Assembly (NCBI RefSeq): GCF_000759435.1
Contig: NZ_JRJG01000022.1
Coordinates: forward strand, 1-61,289
Length of the DNA: 61,289 bases
DNA from: Hoeflea sp. BAL378
GTDB lineage: Bacteria; Pseudomonadota; Alphaproteobacteria; Rhizobiales; Rhizobiaceae
Direction: 5' to 3'
Both the position numbers and the translations under genes were made by a program. Shown here one piece after another: positions 24,301 through 37,709 of the stretch; position 1 is the stretch's first letter; each line of letters starts with the position of its first letter. The notes beneath the pieces were generated by a model, which worked only from the letters and a program-made list of their open reading frames with translations, had not been told where the DNA came from and did no database searches.

Positions 24301-25829
<1,529 letters not shown>

Positions 25830-25833
<4 letters not shown>

Positions 25834-26963
25834 GCGCGCCCTACGCCAAGCTGCCCGGCTGGGTGGATTACGGGCTGATCCCGCTCATCAATCTCGCGGT
25901 CGCCTTCCTGGTCGCGGGCCTTGTGGTGCTGGCGGTGGGCGAAAGCCCGCTGCGCGCCGCCAGCCTGATGATCGAGGGCGCCTTCGGCTATGGCGAGGGC
26001 ATCGGCTTCACGCTCTACTACGCCACCAATTTCATCTTCACCGGGCTCGCCGTGGCCGTCGCCTTCCACTGCGGCCTGTTCAACATCGGCGGCGAGGGCC
26101 AGGCCTATGTCGCGGGCCTGGGCGTGGCGCTGCCCTGCCTGTGGCTCGACCAGGTGATGCCCTGGTACGTGATCTTTCCGGTGGCCATTCTCGGCTCGGC
26201 GCTGGCCGGCGCCGCCTGGGCGCTGATCCCGGGCTGGCTGCAGGCCAAGCGCGGCAGCCATGTGGTGATCACCACCATCATGTTCAATTTCATCGCCTCG
26301 AGCCTGATGGTCTATGTGCTGGTCGACGTGCTGAAGCCCGCGGGATCGATGGCGCCGCAGACCCGCACCTTCGCCGAAAGCGGGCAGTTGCCGCGACTCG
26401 ACTGGCTGCTGTCCTGGGTCGGGCTCGACATCGGCGGCGCGCCGTTCAACCTGTCCTTCCTGCTGGCGCTGGTCATGGCGGTCGTGGTCTGGGTGCTGAT
26501 CTGGCGCACCAAGCTCGGCTACGAGATCCGCACCATGGGCCACAGTCCTAGCGCCGCGCGCTATGCCGGCATCGGCGAAAGCCGCATCATCATCATCACC
26601 ATGATGATCTCGGGCGGGCTCGCCGGCATGATGGCGCTCAACCCGATCATGGGCGACCAGCACTCGATGCAGCTCGATTTCGTCGGCGGCGCCGGCTTCG
26701 TCGGCATCGCCGTGGCGCTGATGGGCCGCTCGCACCCGGTGGGCATCGTCCCGGCGGCGATCCTGTTCGGCATGCTCTACCAGGGAGGCGCGGAGATTTC
26801 CTTTGAAATGCCGGAGATTTCGCGCGACATGATCACCATCATCCAGGGCCTGGTGATCCTGTTCGCCGGTGCGCTCGAAAACATGTTCCGCCCGGCCATC
26901 ACCACGTTTTTCGCAACCACGGGAACGGCGCGGGCGGGCAAGACCCTGCCGGCGGGGGAGTAG
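25830..26963 (+). CDS. nupB: Nucleoside ABC transporter permease 1 (YufP/NupB type)
   Basis: The 377-residue membrane protein is ATGA-coupled to the ATPase gene. It has about nine to ten hydrophobic helices and the branched-chain/ribose-type permease pattern FHCGLFNIGGEGQAYVAGLG (about residues 78-97) and GAGFVGIAVALMGRSHP. EVRT-like GYEIRTMGHSPSAARYAGI is the cytoplasmic coupling region. It forms half of the nucleoside channel. Length matches the YufP group, longer than its partner. Specificity is inferred from the following nucleoside-catabolic genes. Confidence 0.9.
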
Positions 26964-26967
26964 GATC

Positions 26968-27939
26968 ATGGAGTATTTCGACACGCTGATCGTCATCCTG
27001 CAATCCACCGTGCGCGTCTCGGTGCCGCTGATTCTCGCGGCGCTGGCGGGCCTCTATTCGGAGCGCTCGGGGATCTTCGACATCGGGCTCGAGGGCAAGA
27101 TGCTGGCCGCCGCCTTTGCCGGCGCCGCCGCCGCCGCGGTCACGGAATCGGCGCTGATCGGGCTCGGCGCGGCGATCTTCGTCTCGGTCTGCCTGGCGCT
27201 GGTGCACGGCTTTGCCTCCATCACCCAGCGCGGCAACCAGATCGTCTCCGGCGTGGCGATCAACTTCATCGCGCTCGGCGCCACAGTGATCCTCGGCCAG
27301 GCCTGGTTCCGGCAGGGCGGCAGGACGCCGCAGCTGAGCGGCGACGCCCGCTTCACCACGGTCGAACTGCCTTTCGCCGCCGAACTTGCCGATGTCCCGA
27401 TCCTCGGCCCGATCTATTCCAACCTGCTGTCGGGCCATTTCCTGCTCACCTACCTCGCCTTCGCGCTGGTGCCCTTCACCTGGTGGGTGCTCTACCGGAC
27501 CCGGTTCGGGCTGAGGCTGCGCGCCGTGGGGGAAAACCCGGGCGCGGTGGACACGGCGGGCATTTCGGTGACCTGGCTCCGCTACCGGGCGGTAATCTGC
27601 TGCGGCATCCTCACCGGCATCGCCGGCGCCTATCTGTCGATGGCCATGACCGCGGGCTTCGTCAAGGGCATGACCGCCGGCAAGGGCTTCATTGCGCTGG
27701 CGGCGCTGATCTTCGCCAAGTGGAAGCCGGTCAACGTCATGTTCGCCTGCCTGCTGTTCGGCTTCCTCGATGCCATGTCGATCCGCATGCAGGGCAATCC
27801 GCTGCCCTTCATCGGCGAGGTGCCGGTGCAGTTCATGCAGGCGCTGCCCTACATGCTCACGGTGATCCTGCTCGCCGGCTTCATCGGCAAGGCGATCCCG
27901 CCGCGCGCCGGCGGCGTGCCCTATGTCAAGGAGCGATGA
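26968..27939 (+). CDS. nupC: Nucleoside ABC transporter permease 2 (YufQ/NupC type)
   Basis: The 323-residue membrane protein starts MEYFDTLIVILQSTVRVSVP and carries SERSGIFDIGLEGKMLAAAFA, the hallmark of this permease family. GLRLRAVGENPGAVDTAGI is the coupling segment and GKGFIALAALIFAKWKP the C-terminal membrane part. About eight to nine helices are visible. The ATG at 26968 has TAGGA just upstream and lies 4 bases after the previous stop. With the longer permease and the tandem ATPase it completes the membrane part of the importer. The next gene, cytidine deaminase, starts after one spacer base. Confidence 0.9.
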   Translation: MEYFDTLIVILQSTVRVSVPLILAALAGLYSERSGIFDIGLEGKMLAAAFAGAAAAAVTESALIGLGAAIFVSVCLALVHGFASITQRGNQIVSGVAINFIALGATVILGQAWFRQGGRTPQLSGDARFTTVELPFAAELADVPILGPIYSNLLSGHFLLTYLAFALVPFTWWVLYRTRFGLRLRAVGENPGAVDTAGISVTWLRYRAVICCGILTGIAGAYLSMAMTAGFVKGMTAGKGFIALAALIFAKWKPVNVMFACLLFGFLDAMSIRMQGNPLPFIGEVPVQFMQALPYMLTVILLAGFIGKAIPPRAGGVPYVKER

Positions 27940-27940
27940 C

Positions 27941-28369
27941 ATGACCCGCGATGCTGCCCCAGATCAGGCACATGACCCCGCGCGCGAGCTTTTCGAAGCC
28001 GCCCGCGACGCCATGGCGAAATGCCATGCGCCCTATTCGAAATTTCCCGTCGGCGCAGCGCTCCGCGCCGAGGACGGCTCGGTTCACGCCGGCGCCAATA
28101 TCGAGGTGATTTCCTTCCCCGAAGGCTGGTGCGCCGAGACCACCGCCATCAGCCACATGGTGATGGCCGGCAGCACCAAGATCCGCGAAGTCGCGGTGTA
28201 TGCGGAAAAACTCGACCTGTGCAGCCCCTGCGGCGGCTGCCGGCAGCGGCTGGCGGAGTTCTCCGATCCCGGCACGCTGGTCCATCTGTGCGACGCCACC
28301 GGCGTGAGAAAGACGCTGCGGATGGACGAACTGCTGCCCTATGCCTTCGACACGGAGGTGATCGGATGA
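27941..28369 (+). CDS. cdd: Cytidine deaminase
   Basis: The 142-residue enzyme is the short, homotetrameric type. Zinc is held by C64, C97 and C100 in WCAETTAI and SPCGGCRQ, with E66 as proton shuttle; NIEV at 53-56 contributes substrate contacts. It converts cytidine and deoxycytidine to uridine and deoxyuridine in the cytosol, feeding the thymidine/uridine phosphorylase encoded downstream. The N-terminal 13 residues are Asp/Ala-rich and probably disordered. Its stop overlaps the next start as ATGA. Strong AAGGAG ribosome site upstream, inside the permease 3' end. Confidence 0.95.
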   Translation: MTRDAAPDQAHDPARELFEAARDAMAKCHAPYSKFPVGAALRAEDGSVHAGANIEVISFPEGWCAETTAISHMVMAGSTKIREVAVYAEKLDLCSPCGGCRQRLAEFSDPGTLVHLCDATGVRKTLRMDELLPYAFDTEVIG

Positions 28370-29163
28370 GCGGCGTCGTCGATGTGCTGATCGAACGATT
28401 GCATGGACGCATGCCGCGCCATGCGATCGTGCTGGGCTCGGGGTTGGGCGCGCTGGTCGAGACCGTCGCCGACCCCGTCCGCATCCCCTATTGCGACCTG
28501 CCCGGTTTTCCCGAAAGCGGCGTGTCGGGCCATGCCGGCGAGGTGGTGGCGGGCCATATCGGGGCAACCCCGGTGATCATGCTGTCGGGACGGGTGCATT
28601 ACTACGAGCACGGCCATGCCGACGCCATGCGCGTGCCGCTCGAGGCGCTCAAGGGCATCGGCGTGACCCATCTGATCCTGACCAATTCCGCGGGCTCGCT
28701 CAGGGACGACATGCCGCCCGGTTCGGTGATGCGGATCGCCGACCACATCAATTTCTCGGGCGCCAATCCGCTCATCGGCGAGGAGAGCGACCGCCGCTTC
28801 GTCGGCATGACCAGCGCCTATGATGCGGATCTCGCCAGCCGCCTGACGGCCGCGGCCGAAGCCGCCGGGACCCGGTTGCATGAGGGCGTCTACATGTGGT
28901 TCTCAGGCCCGAGTTTCGAAACGCCGGCGGAAATCCGCATGGCGCGCACGCTCGGCGCCGATGCGGTCGGCATGTCGACCGTCCCGGAGGTCATTCTCGC
29001 CCGCTTTCTCGGAATGAAGGTGGCGGCCGCCTCGGTGATCACCAATTTCGGCGCCGGCATGACCGGCGGCGAACTCAGCCATCAGGAGACCAAGGACATG
29101 GCGCCGATCGGAGGCAAGCGGCTCGCGGCCATTCTGACGCGCCTCATCGGAGATTTCGCATGA
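28366..29163 (+). CDS. punA: Purine nucleoside phosphorylase (trimeric type)
   Basis: The 265-residue enzyme carries the family-2 pattern: the phosphate loop IVLGSGLGAL (about residues 18-27), then SGRVHYYEHG with the phosphate-binding His/Tyr region. ILTNSAGSLRDDMPPGS and GPSFETPAEIRMARTLGADAVGMSTVPE are the purine-site signature. It phosphorolyses inosine, guanosine and their deoxy forms to base plus (deoxy)ribose-1-phosphate. ATGA overlaps tie it to cdd and deoC. Phosphopentomutase deoB, which handles its sugar product, is encoded 8 kb further on the other strand. Confidence 0.94.
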   Translation: MSGVVDVLIERLHGRMPRHAIVLGSGLGALVETVADPVRIPYCDLPGFPESGVSGHAGEVVAGHIGATPVIMLSGRVHYYEHGHADAMRVPLEALKGIGVTHLILTNSAGSLRDDMPPGSVMRIADHINFSGANPLIGEESDRRFVGMTSAYDADLASRLTAAAEAAGTRLHEGVYMWFSGPSFETPAEIRMARTLGADAVGMSTVPEVILARFLGMKVAAASVITNFGAGMTGGELSHQETKDMAPIGGKRLAAILTRLIGDFA

Positions 29164-30182
29164 GCACGAAAACCGCCCAGGCGGAGGGCGAACGCGCCGC
29201 CACGGGATCGGAGCTGGTGGCGCTCGCCCCCGTCCGAGACCGCAATGCCGGCACGGACTTCACGCCGGCCCTGTTCGAGACCATGTCGGTCAACCTGTCG
29301 GCCACCGAGCGGCGCGTGGCGACGCTCGGCGCGCGGCGGACGGTGAAGAAGGCCTGGCAGGCCGCCTGGCTCATCCGGGCCATCGAATGCATCGACCTGA
29401 CGACGCTCGCCGGCGACGACACGCCGGGCAAGGTCGAGCGGCTCTGCGCCAAGGCGCGCAACCCGCTCCGGGCCGACCTGGTCAAGGCGCTGGGGCTCGA
29501 GGACTACCGCCTGACCACCGGCGCCGTCTGCGTCTATCCGATGATGGTGGCGACCGCGGTCCGGGCGCTCGAGGGATCGGGGATTCCCGTGGCCTCGGTG
29601 GCGACCGGCTTTCCCGCCGGCCTGACGCCGATGCAGGACCGGCTGGCCGAGATCCGCTACGCCGTCGGCGAAGGCGCCCACGAGATCGACATCGTCATCT
29701 CCCGCCGCCACGTGCTGACCGGCAACTGGGCGGCGCTCTACGACGAGGTGCGGGCGATGCGCGAGGCCTGCGGCGAGGCCCACATGAAGGCGATCCTCGC
29801 CACCGGCGAGCTCAAGACCCTGTCCAATGTCTATCGCGCGTCGATGGTGTCGATGATGGCCGGGGCCGATTTCGTCAAGACCTCGACCGGCATGGAAGCG
29901 GTCAACGCGACGCTGCCGGTGAGTCTGACCATGGTCCGCTCGGTGCGTGACTATCTCGACCTCACCGGACAGGTCTGCGGCTTCAAGCCCGCCGGCGGCA
30001 TCCGCACCACCAAGGACGCAATCGCCTGGCTGATCCTGATGAAGGAGGAGCTCGGCAACGACTGGCTGAAGCCCGACCTGTTCCGGTTCGGCGCGAGCTC
30101 GCTTCTGGGCGACATCGAACGCCAGATCGAACACAATGTGACCGGCCGCTATTCGTCGGCCGACCGCCACGGCCTGGCGTGA
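29160..30182 (+). CDS. deoC: Deoxyribose-phosphate aldolase
   Basis: The 340-residue class I aldolase has the Schiff-base lysine K240 in DFVKTSTG. The other catalytic residues are near D177 in EIDIVIS and in KPAGGIRTTKDAI. It is the long form with about 70 extra N-terminal residues, like animal and many alphaproteobacterial DERAs. It splits 2-deoxyribose-5-phosphate into glyceraldehyde-3-phosphate and acetaldehyde. The gene is ATGA-coupled to the phosphorylase and followed after 10 bases by a tandem aldehyde dehydrogenase, a likely sink for the acetaldehyde. Confidence 0.96.
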   Translation: MSTKTAQAEGERAATGSELVALAPVRDRNAGTDFTPALFETMSVNLSATERRVATLGARRTVKKAWQAAWLIRAIECIDLTTLAGDDTPGKVERLCAKARNPLRADLVKALGLEDYRLTTGAVCVYPMMVATAVRALEGSGIPVASVATGFPAGLTPMQDRLAEIRYAVGEGAHEIDIVISRRHVLTGNWAALYDEVRAMREACGEAHMKAILATGELKTLSNVYRASMVSMMAGADFVKTSTGMEAVNATLPVSLTMVRSVRDYLDLTGQVCGFKPAGGIRTTKDAIAWLILMKEELGNDWLKPDLFRFGASSLLGDIERQIEHNVTGRYSSADRHGLA

Positions 30183-30192
30183 GGAGCGCTTC

Positions 30193-32586
30193 ATGAACAC
30201 GATCAGGGATATTCTCGACACCATGGATTACGGTCCCGCGCCCGAGGACGCCACCGATGTGCGGGCCTGGCTGGCGCGCCACGAGGCGGGGTTCGGCCAC
30301 TTCATCGGCGGCGCCTTCACCAAGGTGAAGGGCGAGACCTTCACGGTGTCCAACCCCGCCAATGGCCAGAAGCTCGCCCAAGTGGCCGTCGCCGATGCGG
30401 GCGATGTCGACCGGGCGGTGAATGCGGCGGCGAAGGCGCTCAAGACCTGGCGGGCGCTGTCGGGGAATGAGCGCGCGCGGCATCTCTATGCGCTGGCCCG
30501 CCACGTGCAGAAGCACACCCGCTTTCTCGCCGTGCTCGAAACCCTCGACAACGGCAAGACCATCCGCGAGACCCGCGACATCGACGTGCCGCTGGTGGCG
30601 CGGCATTTCTACCATCACGCCGGCTGGGCCGAGCTCCGCGACGACGTCTTCCCCGGCCAGGAGCCGGTCGGCGTCTGCGGCCAGATCATCCCCTGGAACT
30701 TTCCGCTGCTGATGCTCGCCTGGAAGGTGGCGCCGGCGCTGGCCGCGGGCTGCACGGTGGTGCTGAAATCCGCCGAACACACGCCCCTGACGGCGATTGC
30801 CTTCGCCGAGATCTGCGCTGAAGCTGGTCTTCCGGCGGGCGTGTTCAACCTCGTCAACGGCGCCGGCGAGACCGGCGCGCTGCTCGCCGGCCACGAGGGC
30901 GTGGCCAAGCTCGCCTTCACCGGCTCGACCGCCGTGGGACGGCTGCTGCGCCGCCAGACTGCCGGCTCCGGCAAGAAACTCTCGCTCGAACTCGGCGGCA
31001 AGTCGCCCTTCATCGTCTTCGAGAACGCCGATCTCGACGCCGCCATCGAAGGCGTCGTCGACGCCATCTGGTTCAACCAGGGCGAGGTCTGCTGCGCCGG
31101 CTCGCGCGCCATCGTCCAGGAAGGCATCGCCGACAGGTTCCACGACAAGTTGCGCGCCCGTATGGAGAAACTCAGGGTCGGCGATCCGCTCGACAAGTCG
31201 ATGGACATGGGCGCGGTGGTGGCCCCGGTGCAGATCGAGCAGATCACCGCGAAGGTGAAGGCCGGCATCGCCGAGGGCGGCCAGATGTGGCAGCCGAGCT
31301 GGGCGCACACGGTGGCGACCGGCGGCGGCTGCTTCTTCCCGCCGACGCTGTTCACCCATGTGGCGCCGTCCTCGACGCTGGCGCAGGAGGAGATCTTCGG
31401 GCCGGTGCTGGCCTCGATGACCTTCCGCACGCCCGCCGAAGCGGTGCAGCTCGCCAACAATTCGCGCTATGGCCTGGCCGCCTCGGTCTGGTCGCAGAAC
31501 CTCGACGAGGCCTTCGACGCGGCCCGCACACTCAAGTCGGGGATCGTCTGGATCAACTCCACCAACCTGTTCGACGCCTCCGCCGGCTTCGGCGGCTACA
31601 AGGAAAGCGGCTTCGGCCGCGAGGGCGGCCGCGAAGGCATGCGCGAATACCTGGTTCCCGCCTTCCAGGCGAAGGCCAAGGCGCTGCCCGAAAGTGCGCC
31701 GCTTGCCGCGCCGACGCCCGCACCGGGCCCCGCATCGGGCGGCGGGCTCGACCGCACGGTCAAGCTCTATGTCGGCGGCAAGCAGGCGCGGCCCGATTCG
31801 GGCTATTCCTATCCCGTCACCGGCCCCAAGGGCCGGCATCTGGCGGAAGTGGGCCTGGGCAACCGCAAGGACATCCGCAACGCGGTGGAGGCGGCGCACA
31901 AGGCCTCGGCCTGGAGCGGCATGACCGGCCACGCCCGGGCGCAGGTGCTCTATTTCCTGGCCGAGAACCTCGAGCTGCGCGCCGCCGAATTCGCCGCCCG
32001 GCTTGCCGACGCCGGCGCTTCGGCCTCGGCCGCCCGGCGCGAGGTCGAGGCCTCGGTGGCCCGCATCATGCATTACGCCGCCTGGGCCGACAAATATGAC
32101 GGCGCGGTGCGCGCTCCCGACAAGCGGATGCTGACGCTCGCGCTCAACGAGCCCTGGGAGGTGATGGGGATTTCCTGCCCCGACGAGGCACCGCTCTTGG
32201 GCTTCGTCTCGCTGGTCATGCCGGCGATCGCCATGGGCAACCGGGTCGTGGCTACCCCGTCGCAAAGCCAGCCGCTGGCGGCTTGCGATCTCTACCAGGT
32301 GCTCGACACCTCCGACGTGCCCGGCGGCGTCGTCAACATCGTCACCGGCGACCGCGACACGCTCGCCGACACGATGGCCAAGCATGACGACATCGCAGCA
32401 CTCTGGTATTTCGGCGGGACGAAGGGCACCGAGCTGGTCGAGCGCGAATCGGCCGGCAATCTCAAGGCGGTGTGGGCCAACAACGGCAAGGCCCGCGACT
32501 GGTTCGACGCTACTCAGGGCCAGGGCGAGGAATTCCTGTTCCACGCCGTGCGCATCAAGACCGTGTGGACGCCGTTCGGCGTGTGA
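30193..32586 (+). CDS. ALDH16-type tandem aldehyde dehydrogenase
   Basis: The 797-residue protein joins two aldehyde dehydrogenase domains. The first (about 35-490) is complete: N169 in IPWNFPLL, K192 in LKSAEHTP, E266 in LELGGKSP and catalytic C300 in NQGEVCCAGSR. A Pro/Ala linker (about 497-520) leads to a second, shortened domain (from VKLYVGGKQ, about 522-797) with no catalytic cysteine motif. This is the ALDH16 architecture; bacterial members keep the active-site cysteine that human ALDH16A1 lacks. Set between deoC and deoA with 10-base and 9-base gaps, it probably oxidises the acetaldehyde released by DeoC to acetate with NAD. Reaction inferred from context. Confidence 0.9.
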   Translation: MNTIRDILDTMDYGPAPEDATDVRAWLARHEAGFGHFIGGAFTKVKGETFTVSNPANGQKLAQVAVADAGDVDRAVNAAAKALKTWRALSGNERARHLYALARHVQKHTRFLAVLETLDNGKTIRETRDIDVPLVARHFYHHAGWAELRDDVFPGQEPVGVCGQIIPWNFPLLMLAWKVAPALAAGCTVVLKSAEHTPLTAIAFAEICAEAGLPAGVFNLVNGAGETGALLAGHEGVAKLAFTGSTAVGRLLRRQTAGSGKKLSLELGGKSPFIVFENADLDAAIEGVVDAIWFNQGEVCCAGSRAIVQEGIADRFHDKLRARMEKLRVGDPLDKSMDMGAVVAPVQIEQITAKVKAGIAEGGQMWQPSWAHTVATGGGCFFPPTLFTHVAPSSTLAQEEIFGPVLASMTFRTPAEAVQLANNSRYGLAASVWSQNLDEAFDAARTLKSGIVWINSTNLFDASAGFGGYKESGFGREGGREGMREYLVPAFQAKAKALPESAPLAAPTPAPGPASGGGLDRTVKLYVGGKQARPDSGYSYPVTGPKGRHLAEVGLGNRKDIRNAVEAAHKASAWSGMTGHARAQVLYFLAENLELRAAEFAARLADAGASASAARREVEASVARIMHYAAWADKYDGAVRAPDKRMLTLALNEPWEVMGISCPDEAPLLGFVSLVMPAIAMGNRVVATPSQSQPLAACDLYQVLDTSDVPGGVVNIVTGDRDTLADTMAKHDDIAALWYFGGTKGTELVERESAGNLKAVWANNGKARDWFDATQGQGEEFLFHAVRIKTVWTPFGV

Positions 32587-32595
32587 GGGTACATC

Positions 32596-33906
32596 ATGCT
32601 CACCCAGGAAATCATCCGAACCAAGCGCGATGGCGGCGAGCTCGGGGCAGCCGACATCTCGGCCTTCGTCCGCGGCCTGACCGACGAAAGCGTCACTGAA
32701 GGCCAGGTCGCGGCGCTGGCGATGGCGGTGTTCTTCCGGGGCATGAGCCGCGCCGAGGCGGTGGCGCTGACGCTGGCCATGCGCGATTCGGGCGAGGTGC
32801 TCGCCTGGCCGGAACTCGACCGGCCGGTGGTCGACAAGCATTCGACCGGCGGGGTGGGCGACAATGTCTCGCTGATGCTGGCGCCGATCGCCGCGGCCTG
32901 CGGCCTGGCGGTGCCGATGATCTCCGGCCGCGGCCTCGGCCACACCGGCGGCACGCTCGACAAGATGGAATCGATCCCCGGTTACCAGGCGATGCCGGAC
33001 AATGCGCTGTTCCGCAAGGTGGTGGGCTCGGTGGGCTGCGCCATCATCGGCCAGACCGGCAACCTCGCGCCGGCCGACAAGCGCTTCTACGGCATCCGCG
33101 ACGTGACGGCGACGGTCGAATCGGTGCCGCTGATCACCGCCTCGATCCTGTCCAAAAAGCTCGCCGCGGGCCTGGGCGCCCTGGTGCTCGACGTGAAAAG
33201 CGGCAACGGCGCCTTCATGGACACGCCCGAGCGCTCGCTCGAACTGGCCCGCTCGCTGGTCGAGGTGGCCGTCGGCGCCGGCATGCCGACCACGGCGCTG
33301 GTCACGGACATGAACCAGCCCCTGGCGAGCGCCGCCGGCAATGCTGTCGAAGTCAGGAACGCCGCCGATTTCCTCAAGGGTGCTGCGCGCGATCCGCGCC
33401 TCCGCGAGGTCACGCTGGCGCTCGCCGCCGAGATGCTGGTTTTGGGCGGCCTGGCCGCGACCGCGGAGGACGGGCTTGCCCGGGCGCGCGCCGCGCTGGA
33501 AGACGGTCGCGCCGCCGAGATCTTCAACCGGATGGTGCATGCGCTGGGCGGGCCGCCCGATTTCCTCGCCGCTCCCGACCTGCATCTCGGCGCGGCGCCG
33601 TTGAAGACGGCGCTCACCGCCGGCCGCGACGGCTATGTGACGGGCTACGACACCCGCGGCGTAGGCCTCTGCGTCGTGGCCCTTGGCGGCGGCCGCACCC
33701 GGCCGGGCGATCCGGTCGATCATGCGGTGGGACTGACGGGATTGTTGCCCGTCGGCGCGCGGGTCGAGCGCGACACGCCGATCGCCTTCGTCCACGCCCG
33801 CACCGAGGAGCAGGTCGCTCAAGCGCGCGCGCAGATGCGCAAGGCGGTGACGATCGGCGACGCCGCGCCGGAAGTCGCGCCGGCCATTCTGAGCCGCCAG
33901 GGCTAG
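32596..33906 (+). CDS. deoA: Thymidine phosphorylase
   Basis: The 436-residue enzyme has the phosphate-site motif VVDKHSTGGVGDN (residues 78-90, Lys81), the family signature SGRGLGHTGGTLDKMESIPG and the C-terminal barrel-sandwich domain. It phosphorolyses thymidine and deoxyuridine to the base and deoxyribose-1-phosphate, completing the pyrimidine branch with cdd. It is the last plus-strand gene of the importer-deo operon and converges with a retropepsin-like gene 88 bases later. Start at the ATG at 32596, 9 bases after the previous stop. Length and motifs match DeoA rather than the uridine-specific Pdp, though specificity is not certain. Confidence 0.95.
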   Translation: MLTQEIIRTKRDGGELGAADISAFVRGLTDESVTEGQVAALAMAVFFRGMSRAEAVALTLAMRDSGEVLAWPELDRPVVDKHSTGGVGDNVSLMLAPIAAACGLAVPMISGRGLGHTGGTLDKMESIPGYQAMPDNALFRKVVGSVGCAIIGQTGNLAPADKRFYGIRDVTATVESVPLITASILSKKLAAGLGALVLDVKSGNGAFMDTPERSLELARSLVEVAVGAGMPTTALVTDMNQPLASAAGNAVEVRNAADFLKGAARDPRLREVTLALAAEMLVLGGLAATAEDGLARARAALEDGRAAEIFNRMVHALGGPPDFLAAPDLHLGAAPLKTALTAGRDGYVTGYDTRGVGLCVVALGGGRTRPGDPVDHAVGLTGLLPVGARVERDTPIAFVHARTEEQVAQARAQMRKAVTIGDAAPEVAPAILSRQG

Positions 33907-33994: not shown

Positions 33995-34549
33995 TCAGTT
34001 GACCAGTTCGAGCCGGTTGTTGGCGACGCGGTAGGAATGCAGCTTCGACATGAAGCTCATGCCGATCAGCGTCGCCGACAGCGCCTGGTCGTCGAGCACG
34101 AAGGCCTCGACGTCGTGGACGGTGACCGACCCCACCTCGATGCGGTCGATGCGGACCAGGGCGGCGTTGGCCAGGCCGTTGGCGGTGCGGACCTCATGCC
34201 GGAAATCGGAATTGGCCGGCGCCAGGCCGATCGTGCGCGCTGTGGACCGGTTGATGGCCACAAAGGTCGCCCCGGTGTCGACCAGCCCGCGGACGGCACG
34301 GCCGTTGATGTGGAAATCGGCGGTGAAATGGCCTTCCTTGCTCAGCGGGATGCTGGCGGCCCGGACCCCGGTCGCATAATGCGCCTGCGGCTTGGCGGCG
34401 GCGGGCTGAACCGAGGCGGCGACCCGCTGCGGCGCCGTTTCGGCCGTTCCGGCCTCCGTGGACAGGTAGGCCGAGATGTCCTGCGCATAATAGGGCAGGC
34501 CGGACACGGCCAGCACCGCACAGGAGATGAGGAAGAGATTCTTGAACAT
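33995..34549 (-). CDS. Membrane-anchored retropepsin-like aspartic protease (TIGR02281 type)
   Basis: The 184-residue protein has a single N-terminal hydrophobic segment (NLFLISCAVLAVSGLPYYAQ), an Ala/Pro-rich linker to about residue 65 and one clan-AA aspartic protease half. The catalytic motif is LVDTGATFVAI with the Asp at about residue 91, and the partner strand ends at LIGMSFMSKL. One DTGA per chain means it must dimerise, as retroviral proteases do. The domain probably faces the periplasm. Such proteins are common in alphaproteobacteria but their substrates are mostly unknown. The gene stands alone between deoA and upp. Confidence 0.85.
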   Translation of the reverse strand: MFKNLFLISCAVLAVSGLPYYAQDISAYLSTEAGTAETAPQRVAASVQPAAAKPQAHYATGVRAASIPLSKEGHFTADFHINGRAVRGLVDTGATFVAINRSTARTIGLAPANSDFRHEVRTANGLANAALVRIDRIEVGSVTVHDVEAFVLDDQALSATLIGMSFMSKLHSYRVANNRLELVN

Positions 34550-34717: not shown

Positions 34718-35347
34718 CTACTTGGTGCCGTACATGCGGTCGCCGGCGTCGCCCAGGCCCGGTACGATATAGCCTTTCTCGTTGAGATGGCTGTCGATGG
34801 AGGCGGTGAAGATCGGCACGTCGGGATGCGCCTTCTGGAAGTTGCGGATGCCTTCGGGCGCCGCCAGCAGGCACAGGAAGCGGATGTTGCGCGCGCCGCG
34901 TTCCTTCAGCTTGTCGATCGAGGCGATCGAGGAATTGCCGGTGGCGAGCATCGGGTCGACGACGATCACCAGCCGGTTGCTGATGTCCTCGGGCGCCTTG
35001 AAGTAATATTCGATCGCCTCCAGCGTCTCGTGGTCGCGATAGACGCCGATATGGGCGACGCGAGCGGAGGGAACCAGATCGAGCATGCCTTCGAGCAGGC
35101 CGTTGCCAGCGCGCAGGATCGAGGCGAACACCAGCTTCTTGCCCTCGAGCACCGGCGATTCGATCTCGGTCAGCGGCGTTTCGATGCGCTCCATCGTCAG
35201 TTCGAGATCGCGGGTGATCTCGTAGCACATCAGCGTTGAAATCTCCCGCAGCAGCCGCCGGAACCCCGCCGTCGAGGTCTCCTTCTTGCGCATGAAGGTG
35301 AGTTTGTGCTGCACCAGCGGATGATCGATAATCGTGACGCCGTCCAT
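34718..35347 (-). CDS. upp: Uracil phosphoribosyltransferase
   Basis: The 209-residue enzyme shows the uracil-PRTase start [35 protein letters not shown] and the PRPP-binding loop [11 protein letters not shown] (131-140). It ends with the uracil-contacting [16 protein letters not shown]. It converts uracil released by DeoA/Cdd action to UMP. It lies downstream of deoB-add on the same strand, separated by 176 bases that hold no gene and presumably its own promoter. Length and motifs are normal. Confidence 0.96.
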
Positions 35348-35523: not shown

Positions 35524-36492
35524 TCAGTCAAGCTGTCCCAAGAGAAATGCGCGGGTCGGCGCGTCGACGAAGGCCGCCTCGAGCGAGGTGCGCGTGATCG
35601 CGGTCAGTTGCGCGGCGTCGTAGCCCCAGGCTTCGGCCGCCATCTCGTACTCCCGGCCGATCGAGGAGCCGAAATGCGGTGGATCGTCGGAGCTCAGCGT
35701 CACCTTGACGCCGGCGCGGCGCATCCGGTCGAACGGATGCCGGGCCATGTCGGGATAGAGCCCGAGCGCCAGGTTGGAGCCGGGGCAGACTTCCAGCACC
35801 ACGCCCTCCTCGGCGATGCGCTTCACCAGCGCCTCGTCCTCGATGGCGCGGACGCCGTGGCCAATCCGGGACGGGCGGACATGGTCGAGCGCATCGCGCA
35901 CGCTGTCGGGCCCCGCCAGCTCGCCGGCATGGATGGTGATGCCAAGGCCGGCGTCGCGGGCGATGTCGAAGGCGCGGGCGAACTCGGCGACACGGCCGAA
36001 GCGCTCCTCGCCGGCCATGCCGAAACCGGTGATCAGAGGATGCGGCCGGCTCGCCGCCAGCCCCGCCGCCGCCTCGACCTTCTCGGCGCCGAAATGCCGG
36101 ATGCCGACGACGATCATCCGGCATTCGATGCCGGTCGAGGCTTTGGCCGCTTCGATGCCCTGGGCGAGGCCGTCGAAATAGCTTTCCGGCGTCAGCCCCG
36201 CGGCGCTCGCATGATCGGGGGAAACGAAGATCTCGGCATAGATGGCGTTCTCGGCGGCGATCCCCTCGAGATAGGTCTGGGCCAGCAGCGCGTAGTCCTG
36301 CGGCGTGCGGAACAGCGCCGCGGCGCCGTCATAGGCCGTCAGGAACTCGGTGAAGTCGGACCAGACATAGCGGTCGCCGGAGATGAAGCCGGAGACGTCG
36401 GCCCCGTATTTCTGCGCCTGCGCCATGACCAGCGCCGGCGAGGCGGCGCCTTCGATGTGGCAGTGCAGCTCTGCCTTCCTGACGCCGGTCAC
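35524..36492 (-). CDS. add: Adenosine (or adenine) deaminase
   Basis: The 322-residue metal-dependent deaminase has zinc ligands H10 and H12 in ELHCHIEG. The third His and catalytic Glu are in [12 protein letters not shown], the HGVRA His in [11 protein letters not shown], and the paired Asp in SSDDPPHFG. Most of the C-terminal half resembles adenosine deaminase. However, HxHxEG and SDDPxxFG recall the adenine-deaminase branch of the same family. Either activity fits the operon, since PNP liberates bases from nucleosides. The ATG overlaps the deoB stop by 4 bases. I keep add as the working name. Confidence 0.82.
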
Positions 36493-37709
36493 AGGAAGCT
36501 CGTTCCGCTGGCGAGCGCGGGCAGGCCCAGGTGCCGCGCCAGCGTTGCGCCGATGTCGGCATAGGTCGGGCGCACGCCGATGCTGCGTGCCGCCACGCCG
36601 GGTCCGAAGCCCAGGACCGGCACGCGCTCGCGGGTGTGGTCTGTCCCGCGCCAGGTGGGGTCGCAGCCATGGTCCGCGGTCATCAGCACCAGGTCGCCGG
36701 GCTTGAGCAGCTTGGCGAAGCGCGGCAGCAGCGTGTCGAGCGCCTCGAGCGCGGCGGCATAGCCGGCGACATCGCGGCGGTGGCCGAACAGCATGTCGAA
36801 ATCGACGAAATTGGTGAACACGAGATCGCCATCGGATGCCTCCCCGGCAGCTTTCAGCGTGGCCTCGAACAACGCCGCATTGCCGTTGGCCTTCCGCATG
36901 TCGGTGACGCCCTGGTGGGCGAAGATGTCGCTGATCTTGCCGACGCCGAAGACGCGGTGGCGGCTCTGCTTGACCTGGTCGAGCAGGGTCGGCCCGGGCG
37001 GCGGCACGGAGAAATCGCGGCGGTTGCCGGTACGGTCGAAGCCGGCTTCGGCGGAGCCCACGAAGGGGCGGGCGATCACCCGGCCGATATTGAGCGGATC
37101 GACCAGCTTGCGCACGACCTGGCAGAGCTCGATCAGCCGCTCAAGGCCGAAGCTTTCCTCGTGCGCGGCGATCTGGAACACCGAATCCGACGAGGTGTAG
37201 CAGATCGGCTTGCCGCTTCTCACATGCTCGGCGCCGAGCCGGGCGATGATCTCGGTGCCCGAGGCGTGGCAATTGCCGAGGATTCCCGGCACCTTGCCTT
37301 CCGCCATGATCGCCGCCACCAGCTCGTCGCTGAACGCAGGTCCTTCGTCGGGGAAATAGCCCCAGTCGAACATCACCGGCTGTCCGGCCATTTCCCAATG
37401 TCCCGAGGGCGTGTCCTTGCCGCGCGAGACCTCGCTCGCAGCGCCGTGGATGCCGCGCGGCCGGGCCGCCAGGCTCCAGCCGGCGGGCAGGTTGCCCGAG
37501 GCCGCCAGCGCCGCCTCGCCCAGCCCGAGCGACTGCATGTGCGGCAGCGACAGCGGCCCCTTGCGCAGGCCCGGCCGGTCGGCCAGCCCCGCGGCGCACT
37601 GCTCGGCGATGTGGCCGAGCGTGTTGGCCCCCAGGTCGCCATAGGACTCGGCGTCGGGCGCCCCGCCAATGCCAAAAGAATCAAGAACGAACAGGAATGC
37701 ACGCGCCAT
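36489..37709 (-). CDS. deoB: Phosphopentomutase
   Basis: The 406-residue manganese enzyme of the alkaline-phosphatase superfamily begins [20 protein letters not shown] with metal ligand Asp10. The catalytic-threonine region is [15 protein letters not shown] and the C-terminal metal site is [20 protein letters not shown]. It interconverts (deoxy)ribose-1-phosphate and -5-phosphate, linking the phosphorylases to DeoC. The ATG at 37709 has GGAGA 6 bases upstream; a longer in-frame opening beyond it is an artefact of GC-rich sequence. It is coupled to add and divergent from the PhnD-like gene. Confidence 0.95.

Follow-up and report, generated by a model that had tools for sequence, protein, structure and literature searches.

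ALDH16 aldehyde dehydrogenase genes accompany one subtype of deoxyribose-phosphate aldolase across bacteria

The window analysed here is a 61,289-nucleotide stretch of Hoeflea sp. BAL378 (contig NZ_JRJG01000022.1, positions 1 to 61,289). On its forward strand, the gene of an ALDH16, a two-domain aldehyde dehydrogenase (ALDH; 30193..32586), lies between deoC, encoding deoxyribose-phosphate aldolase (29160..30182), and deoA, encoding thymidine phosphorylase (32596..33906). DeoC cleaves deoxyribose 5-phosphate into glyceraldehyde 3-phosphate and acetaldehyde. We found the tie between ALDH16 and deoC across bacteria to be stronger than the sequence of the window alone could show, and we consider it likely that ALDH16 serves a single DeoC subtype as its dedicated partner, the two enzymes forming a deoxyribose 5-phosphate module in which the acetaldehyde is oxidised.

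Results

The ALDH16 protein of the window

The ALDH16 gene of the window is intact and encodes 797 residues, with two Aldedh stretches: by domain and homology searches, a catalytic ALDH domain (approximately residues 1-495) is followed by a truncated, non-catalytic ALDH-like domain (approximately residues 518-797; d2, 31744..32583, +), which is a stand-alone gene in other phyla. PDB 6mvr and its kin match residues 3-796 with 944 bits, and the next PDB protein matches the first domain only (383 bits). These entries (6mvr-6mvu) are reportedly the Loktanella ALDH16 (LsALDH16) of Liu and Tanner, 2019. Hence, the ALDH16 layout given by the initial annotation, which was made from the sequence alone, is borne out, a bacterial ALDH16 of solved structure matching it along the full length. 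Its catalytic residues N169, E266 and C300 are all at the positions it gave, and its order deoC-ALDH-deoA is exact, all on the + strand with gaps of 10 and 9 nucleotides. Its description of the second domain as cysteine-less was wrong, as C662 and C698 are present; the domain is without the entire catalytic half of an ALDH. d2 aligns along its length with 37 relatives, and its free-standing relatives cover only about positions 4-237 of the 461 in Pfam Aldedh. The best named match in our genome scan was Hoeflea olei, whose second domain is 91% identical.

ALDH16 genes follow deoC

We picked ALDH16 genes without regard to deoC. With the whole window protein as query, 240 Alphaproteobacteria genomes yielded 21 full-length ALDH16 loci (855-1813 bits) and one split over two contigs (genome G220); below them was a sharp gap, with single-domain ALDHs from 391 bits downward. 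deoC was upstream on the same strand in all 21 full-length loci and also in G220, and it was found in 0/8 single-domain ALDH loci with 1.5-kb flanks (L031-L038). Sinorhizobium meliloti (locus L255) is among the species with the pair. Phylum-wide, the second domain as query retrieved 46 ALDH16 rows in 45 of 398 genomes. All 40 newly fetched loci, four genomes outside the class included, have deoC upstream on the same strand at 10-825 nucleotides by match edges; five of the other six rows have it, and the sixth (G286) is cut by a contig end. From a scan of named genomes with the second-domain alignment as query, we took the best 80 loci (Pseudomonadota 59, Bacteroidota 13, Gemmatimonadota 2, Chloroflexota 2, Myxococcota, Acidobacteriota and Bdellovibrionota 1 each, and 1 without a phylum). 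deoC was found in 74 of these 80, and five of the six misses are cut by contig ends.

Pooling distinct full-length ALDH16 genes, we found deoC upstream on the same strand in 136/138, with gap quartiles of 8, 11 and 26 nucleotides (median 11); the one gap of 1040 nucleotides, at L010, is a fault of the frame finder, as the match edges there are 36 nucleotides apart. The two misses are L253, at a contig end, and L160. Named full-length genes span six phyla and SAR324. Catalytic residues are conserved as well: N169, K192 and C300 are kept in 137/138 aligned proteins and E266 in 136/138.

Two of these loci stand apart. At L160 (7120-10843), the sole uncut named locus without deoC, ALDH16 comes directly after an FMO-like monooxygenase gene. 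At L150, Val replaces the catalytic Glu266 with the Asn and Cys kept, which is either a real change or a sequence error.

ALDH16 co-occurs with one DeoC subtype

With the window DeoC as query against the same 240 genomes, we obtained 55 matches in 54 genomes, which fall into two non-overlapping groups: 22 long forms (54-100% identity, at least 337 bits) and 33 short forms (31-45%, at most 151 bits). The window DeoC is 54-69% identical to the remaining 21 long forms vs 31-45% to the 33 short ones. The 22 genomes with long-type DeoC are exactly the 22 ALDH16 genomes among the 240 (Fisher p 1e-31, with related genomes being non-independent). G051 carries both DeoC types, and ALDH16 adjoins only the long one.

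An N-terminal extension and a C-terminal tail are conserved among long-type DeoCs. We found an N-terminal element in 164/195 paired DeoCs and in 0/32 unpaired ones, counts that are descriptive since the motif was chosen after viewing and the sequences are related (the comparison leaves out two long rows under 200 residues and one of the 33 short loci). A stricter, earlier motif pattern failed, matching 1/136, 24/37 and 0/23 in the sets of paired DeoCs and 0/27 unpaired ones. In the DeoC tree, from which row L010 was left out for lack of columns, the rows partnered by a fused ALDH16, those partnered by a split form (described below) and the unpartnered ones make three groups, the fewest possible changes. 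The window DeoC lies inside a clade of 29 fused-partnered rows (support 100/99), and the split-partnered group has modest support (94/84). For one fused-partnered and one split-partnered DeoC alike, TIGR00126 is the sole NCBIfam family reported.

In two Bacteroidota loci (L276 and L277), the DeoCs (44% and 37% identity) carry different N-terminal extensions and the stretch shows no ALDH match, possibly pointing to a further DeoC subtype.

A split form of ALDH16

Among 296 Bacteroidota genomes, the same five hold long-type DeoC (58-67%) and fused ALDH16. Another 53 hold a mid-type DeoC (46-52% identity) and a free-standing d2-like protein, the two sets of 53 being identical. The free d2 protein has about 290 residues in the examples examined and is 33-42% identical to the ALDH16 second domain; its best solved match is 6mvr residues 500-766 (224 bits, next protein 102 bits). 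In 12/14 fetched neighbourhoods, deoC, a single-domain ALDH and free d2 follow in order on one strand. At L262 the free d2 is about 10 kb away; at L273 the ALDH and free d2 are both outside the stretch, with free d2 on another contig. Asn, Lys, Glu and Cys are retained in 13/13 split ALDHs examined.

Phylogeny places the two forms together. In a tree with 16 other ALDHs, the first domains of ALDH16 and the split ALDHs come out as sisters to the exclusion of the rest (100/99), a grouping repeated with Chloroflexota and actinomycete rows against 7 other ALDHs. Second domains, fused or split, likewise cluster together and away from N-terminal halves of catalytic ALDHs, with 30 columns invariant over 20 of these second domains, and the fused form and the split form are each a single group in the trees. 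Because d2 in Bacteroidota, Chloroflexota and one actinomycete is encoded on its own next to a sister ALDH and the matching DeoC subtype, ALDH16 appears to be the one-chain form of a two-protein system.

Proposed role and the evidence against it

The products of DeoC are known and the hydrolytic catalytic set is intact, which makes oxidation of acetaldehyde to acetate the likeliest reaction of ALDH16. From this we infer the substrate and, from the described structure of LsALDH16, the role of the second domain. The first domain, with Cys, Glu and Asn of the hydrolytic kind, would oxidise DeoC-derived acetaldehyde to acetate with NAD+; this removal would clear a toxic product and pull the reversible aldolase forward. 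The second domain would be a non-catalytic ALDH-like subunit that replaces a partner protomer. The module would be fed either by a nucleoside operon, as in the window, or by sugar transport and a sugar kinase.

Several observations weigh against this role. The acetaldehyde dehydrogenase equivalog ExaC (NCBIfam NF050026) gives the window protein 484.1 bits, far below the curated cut-off of 900. Around the 33 short-type deoC loci (approximately 6 kb on each side where contigs allow), an ALDH match above 40 bits was found in 0/33, although a very divergent acylating enzyme could escape such a search and some stretches are short. In the Roseilinea metagenome-assembled genome that holds L160, a long-type deoC is on another contig, with no ALDH within 1.5 kb after it. 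DeoC is inside the fetched stretch in only 46/73 Chloroflexota, and in two split-type genomes of that phylum (G1093 and G1129) no paired-type DeoC was found in the genome search. Also, catalytic residues have been lost with the gene kept in one genus (that of genome G600), so oxidation cannot be the sole selected function there.

The short-type loci also bear on what kind of partner ALDH16 would be. deoA is nearby in 26 of them, and the absence of an ALDH neighbour from 33/33 loci, 26 with deoA, implies that the ALDH belongs to one aldolase subtype and not to a general need of the pathway. The generic acetaldehyde sink for deoxynucleoside breakdown that the initial annotation proposed leaves these ALDH-free loci unexplained, and we rejected it as a rule for every deo operon.

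In Chloroflexota adjacency is looser, but co-occurrence holds. A second-domain match of at least 254 bits was found in 74/251 genomes (next 161 bits), and besides G617 we fetched 73 neighbourhoods and searched the ALDH16- or d2-bearing genomes for DeoC. Within the 46 stretches that contain DeoC, the best match is the long DeoC for 23/23 fused-type loci and the mid-type query for 23/23 split-type loci. For the remaining 27, a long DeoC (62-69%) turned up farther down the contig or at another site in 18/18 fused-type genomes and a mid-type DeoC (48-52%) in 7/9 split-type genomes, which brings the matching subtype to 71/73 genomes. The single actinomycete locus read, from Nonomuraea (record filed as plasmid), has deoC, ALDH and d2 in order.

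It is scarcely credible that this linkage is mere operon convenience or shared transfer with no functional tie. Gene clusters do move together, and 55/110 loci have no nucleoside or sugar genes by the queries used. However, 25 of the 27 Chloroflexota genomes without deoC in the stretch still encode the matching subtype outside it, on the same contig or at another place, as does the L160 genome, and co-occurrence holds in Pseudomonadota, Bacteroidota, Chloroflexota and one actinomycete.

Three other Chloroflexota loci were unusual in arrangement. The two domains of the fused-type ALDH16 at L322 (G1059) are out of one frame, a recent split or an assembly error, and at L340 and L341 a mid-type deoC is on the opposite strand, 52 and 18 nucleotides past the free d2 match.

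Natural loss of catalytic residues

One of the 138 pooled proteins (L107) keeps no catalytic residue of the three; its frame is open over 730 codons, with a third-position GC of 0.91. Its genus, that of G600, has ALDH16 in 16/18 genomes. Of these 16 proteins, 6 are without the catalytic Cys (L386-L390 and L397) and 8 without Asn169, in each case from full-length open frames; the Cys was lost at least twice within the genus. All 16 genes follow deoC at 7-9 nucleotides, and all 16 DeoCs keep the FIKTSTG and GFKPAGG motifs.

By a simple counting method, two Cys-less ALDH16 pairs have ratios of nonsynonymous to synonymous substitution (dN/dS) of 0.24 and 0.21, and their deoC genes 0.08 and 0.08. 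Three catalytic pairs have 0.09, 0.06 and 0.08. A pair without Asn169 (Gln there) has 0.36, and its deoC is also relaxed (0.26). Hence, going by the two Cys-less pairs, dead ALDH16 copies are still under purifying selection, though it is weaker.

Subtype matching, a separable d2 and the keeping of dead copies suggest that catalysis is not the whole role of ALDH16, which may form a complex with DeoC. It is accordingly worth asking whether ALDH16 is primarily a structural or regulatory partner of DeoC (a scaffold, an allosteric activator or a channel), with aldehyde oxidation secondary and dispensable; we regard this as possible, though we doubt it. The Cys-less proteins of the G600 genus, whose genes stay 7 nucleotides from deoC with intact motifs, fit such a function, as do the choice of partner by DeoC subtype rather than by pathway and the N-terminal element seen only in paired DeoCs; the human member, too, is described in the excerpted literature as a catalytically dead pseudoenzyme. 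Yet 136 or 137 of the 138 surveyed genes, depending on the residue, retain the catalytic positions, and the Cys-less pairs are looser in dN/dS than the three catalytic pairs (0.06-0.09).

Nucleoside and sugar neighbourhoods

We counted neighbouring genes in the 110 of 120 loci that are at least 10 kb long with both deoC and ALDH16 found. Within 8 kb, deoA is present in 28, pnp in 20, deoB in 18 and cdd in 17, and any nucleoside genes in 30. By similarity, genes for a sugar-type ATP-binding cassette (ABC) transporter, a PfkB kinase or RbsD/FucU are present in 33, although the ABC query can also pick up nucleoside-type transporters. Both sets are present in 8 loci and neither in 55. Only the DeoC reaction is common to the nucleoside and sugar contexts. 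For example, a sugar-binding-domain protein (probably a SorC-type regulator) accompanies deoC and ALDH16 in Phyllobacterium, and a kinase, RbsD/FucU and a sugar-binding protein are near L078. Thus the linkage of bacterial ALDH16 to both deoC and deoA, as the window had suggested, holds for deoC and fails for deoA, which we rejected as part of the core given its presence in so few loci.

The sugar genes raise the idea that the substrate of ALDH16 is not acetaldehyde but a different pathway aldehyde, namely free deoxyribose, deoxyribose 5-phosphate or glyceraldehyde 3-phosphate, and the ALDH superfamily does include sugar and glyceraldehyde dehydrogenases. We consider this improbable: oxidation of deoxyribose or its phosphate would circumvent the very enzyme, DeoC, with which ALDH16 is strictly partnered, and acetaldehyde would be the DeoC product used by no recognised neighbour. 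Acetaldehyde oxidation by a DeoC-dedicated ALDH16 is the reading that we prefer.

In Gaetbulibacter (L177), a DeoD-like phosphorylase gene (named by eye) is 28 nucleotides after ALDH16, and some 5 kb from the first deoC of this genome lies another, which matches weakly.

The window itself is a deo gene cluster by curated models (TIGR00126, TIGR02643, TIGR01696 and TIGR01698 all above cut-off). Its DeoC, assigned to the long subtype with the conserved N-terminal extension by the subtype comparison, scores 158.6 bits with TIGR00126 (cut-off 117.3), and its DeoA 687 bits with TIGR02643 (cut-off 570.7). Upstream on the + strand are genes for an ABC transporter ATPase with two ABC domains (24301..25833; Pfam ABC_tran, bounded by its start codon), permease 1 (25830..26963) and permease 2 (26968..27939, bounded by its start codon), both BPD_transp_2 (Pfam PF02653), then cdd, encoding cytidine deaminase (27923..28369; NF004064 and TIGR01354 above cut-off), and pnp/punA, encoding purine-nucleoside phosphorylase (28366..29163; TIGR01698, with an ATGA overlap of its own), whose stop overlaps the deoC start (ATGA at 29160). 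On the - strand are a gene for a retropepsin-like aspartyl protease domain protein directly beyond deoA (33995-34549; PF13975/PF13650), upp for uracil phosphoribosyltransferase (34718..35347; TIGR01091 above cut-off), add for adenosine deaminase (35524..36492; NF006848 and TIGR01430 above cut-off) and deoB for phosphopentomutase (36489..37709; TIGR01696, bounded by its start codon). The transporter genes (24301-27939) adjoin cdd, and the five BMP-family binding-protein genes of the genome are all on other contigs, none in the window.

Discussion

The window cluster shares its DeoC, DeoA, DeoB and purine-nucleoside phosphorylase chemistry with the E. coli-type deo operon (deoCABD), which to our knowledge includes no ALDH; its DeoC, in contrast, is of the long subtype, distinct from the 33 short-type alphaproteobacterial DeoCs. 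ExaC belongs to the same superfamily as ALDH16, and its model matches window residues 30-483, but it spans one ALDH domain only (503 positions).

A DeoC-type aldolase also shares a locus with an ALDH in the sugar phosphate utilizing (SPU) microcompartment loci, where, in the excerpted text of PMC4207490, the AldDH is proposed to make acetyl-CoA from the acetaldehyde. The window ALDH differs in being an ALDH16 with the hydrolytic Glu and not the acetyl-CoA former proposed for that microcompartment. LsALDH16, which has the same two-domain layout as the window protein, is described in PMC8160307 as having a large non-functional C-terminal cofactor-binding domain and forming a dimer in which this domain mimics the partner protomer; the portion of that source available to us gives no pathway, DeoC link or split form. 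No ALDH for DeoC-derived acetaldehyde is named in the available portions of Price 2019 (PMC6365646) and Price 2022 (PMC9007349), and those of PMC8346489 and PMC12636525 contain nothing on ALDH16. Among the matches listed, open-access titles and abstract openings state neither a DeoC-ALDH16 link nor the split form, most subscription literature being outside this scope.

The idea of a complex might extend to the human enzyme. Human ALDH16A1 shares the family name and the two-domain ALDH16 layout. In the excerpted part of a 2023 review of human ALDHs (PMC10650815), it is without the whole catalytic triad, whereas the window protein has the full triad; the same part gives it no known substrate, and reviews tie it to gout and HPRT. 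The purine/HPRT connection put forward by the initial annotation gained no support, with pnp in so few of the neighbourhoods counted above. A bolder reading, which we hold to be rather unlikely, is that ALDH16 is at root a DeoC partner, made of a catalytic ALDH and a pseudo-ALDH subunit in one chain or two, that would bind the paired DeoC subtype and either channel its acetaldehyde or control it, and that catalysis could be lost with the partnership intact, as repeatedly in one bacterial genus and, by a like path, in animals; the forgotten partner of human ALDH16A1 would then be DERA, not HPRT. The human partner implied, if any, would be DERA. DERA is the human DeoC homologue, and it may resemble the paired DeoC type.

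With a bacterial partner that hardly ever varies, the ALDH16 family gains a concrete pathway that can be tested directly, and DeoC proves to have some subtypes with a dedicated ALDH and others that have none. That the C-terminal domain also occurs on its own suggests that the enigmatic second domain of ALDH16 is a fused subunit. Cys-less proteins found naturally in bacteria may serve as laboratory models of the human pseudoenzyme ALDH16A1.

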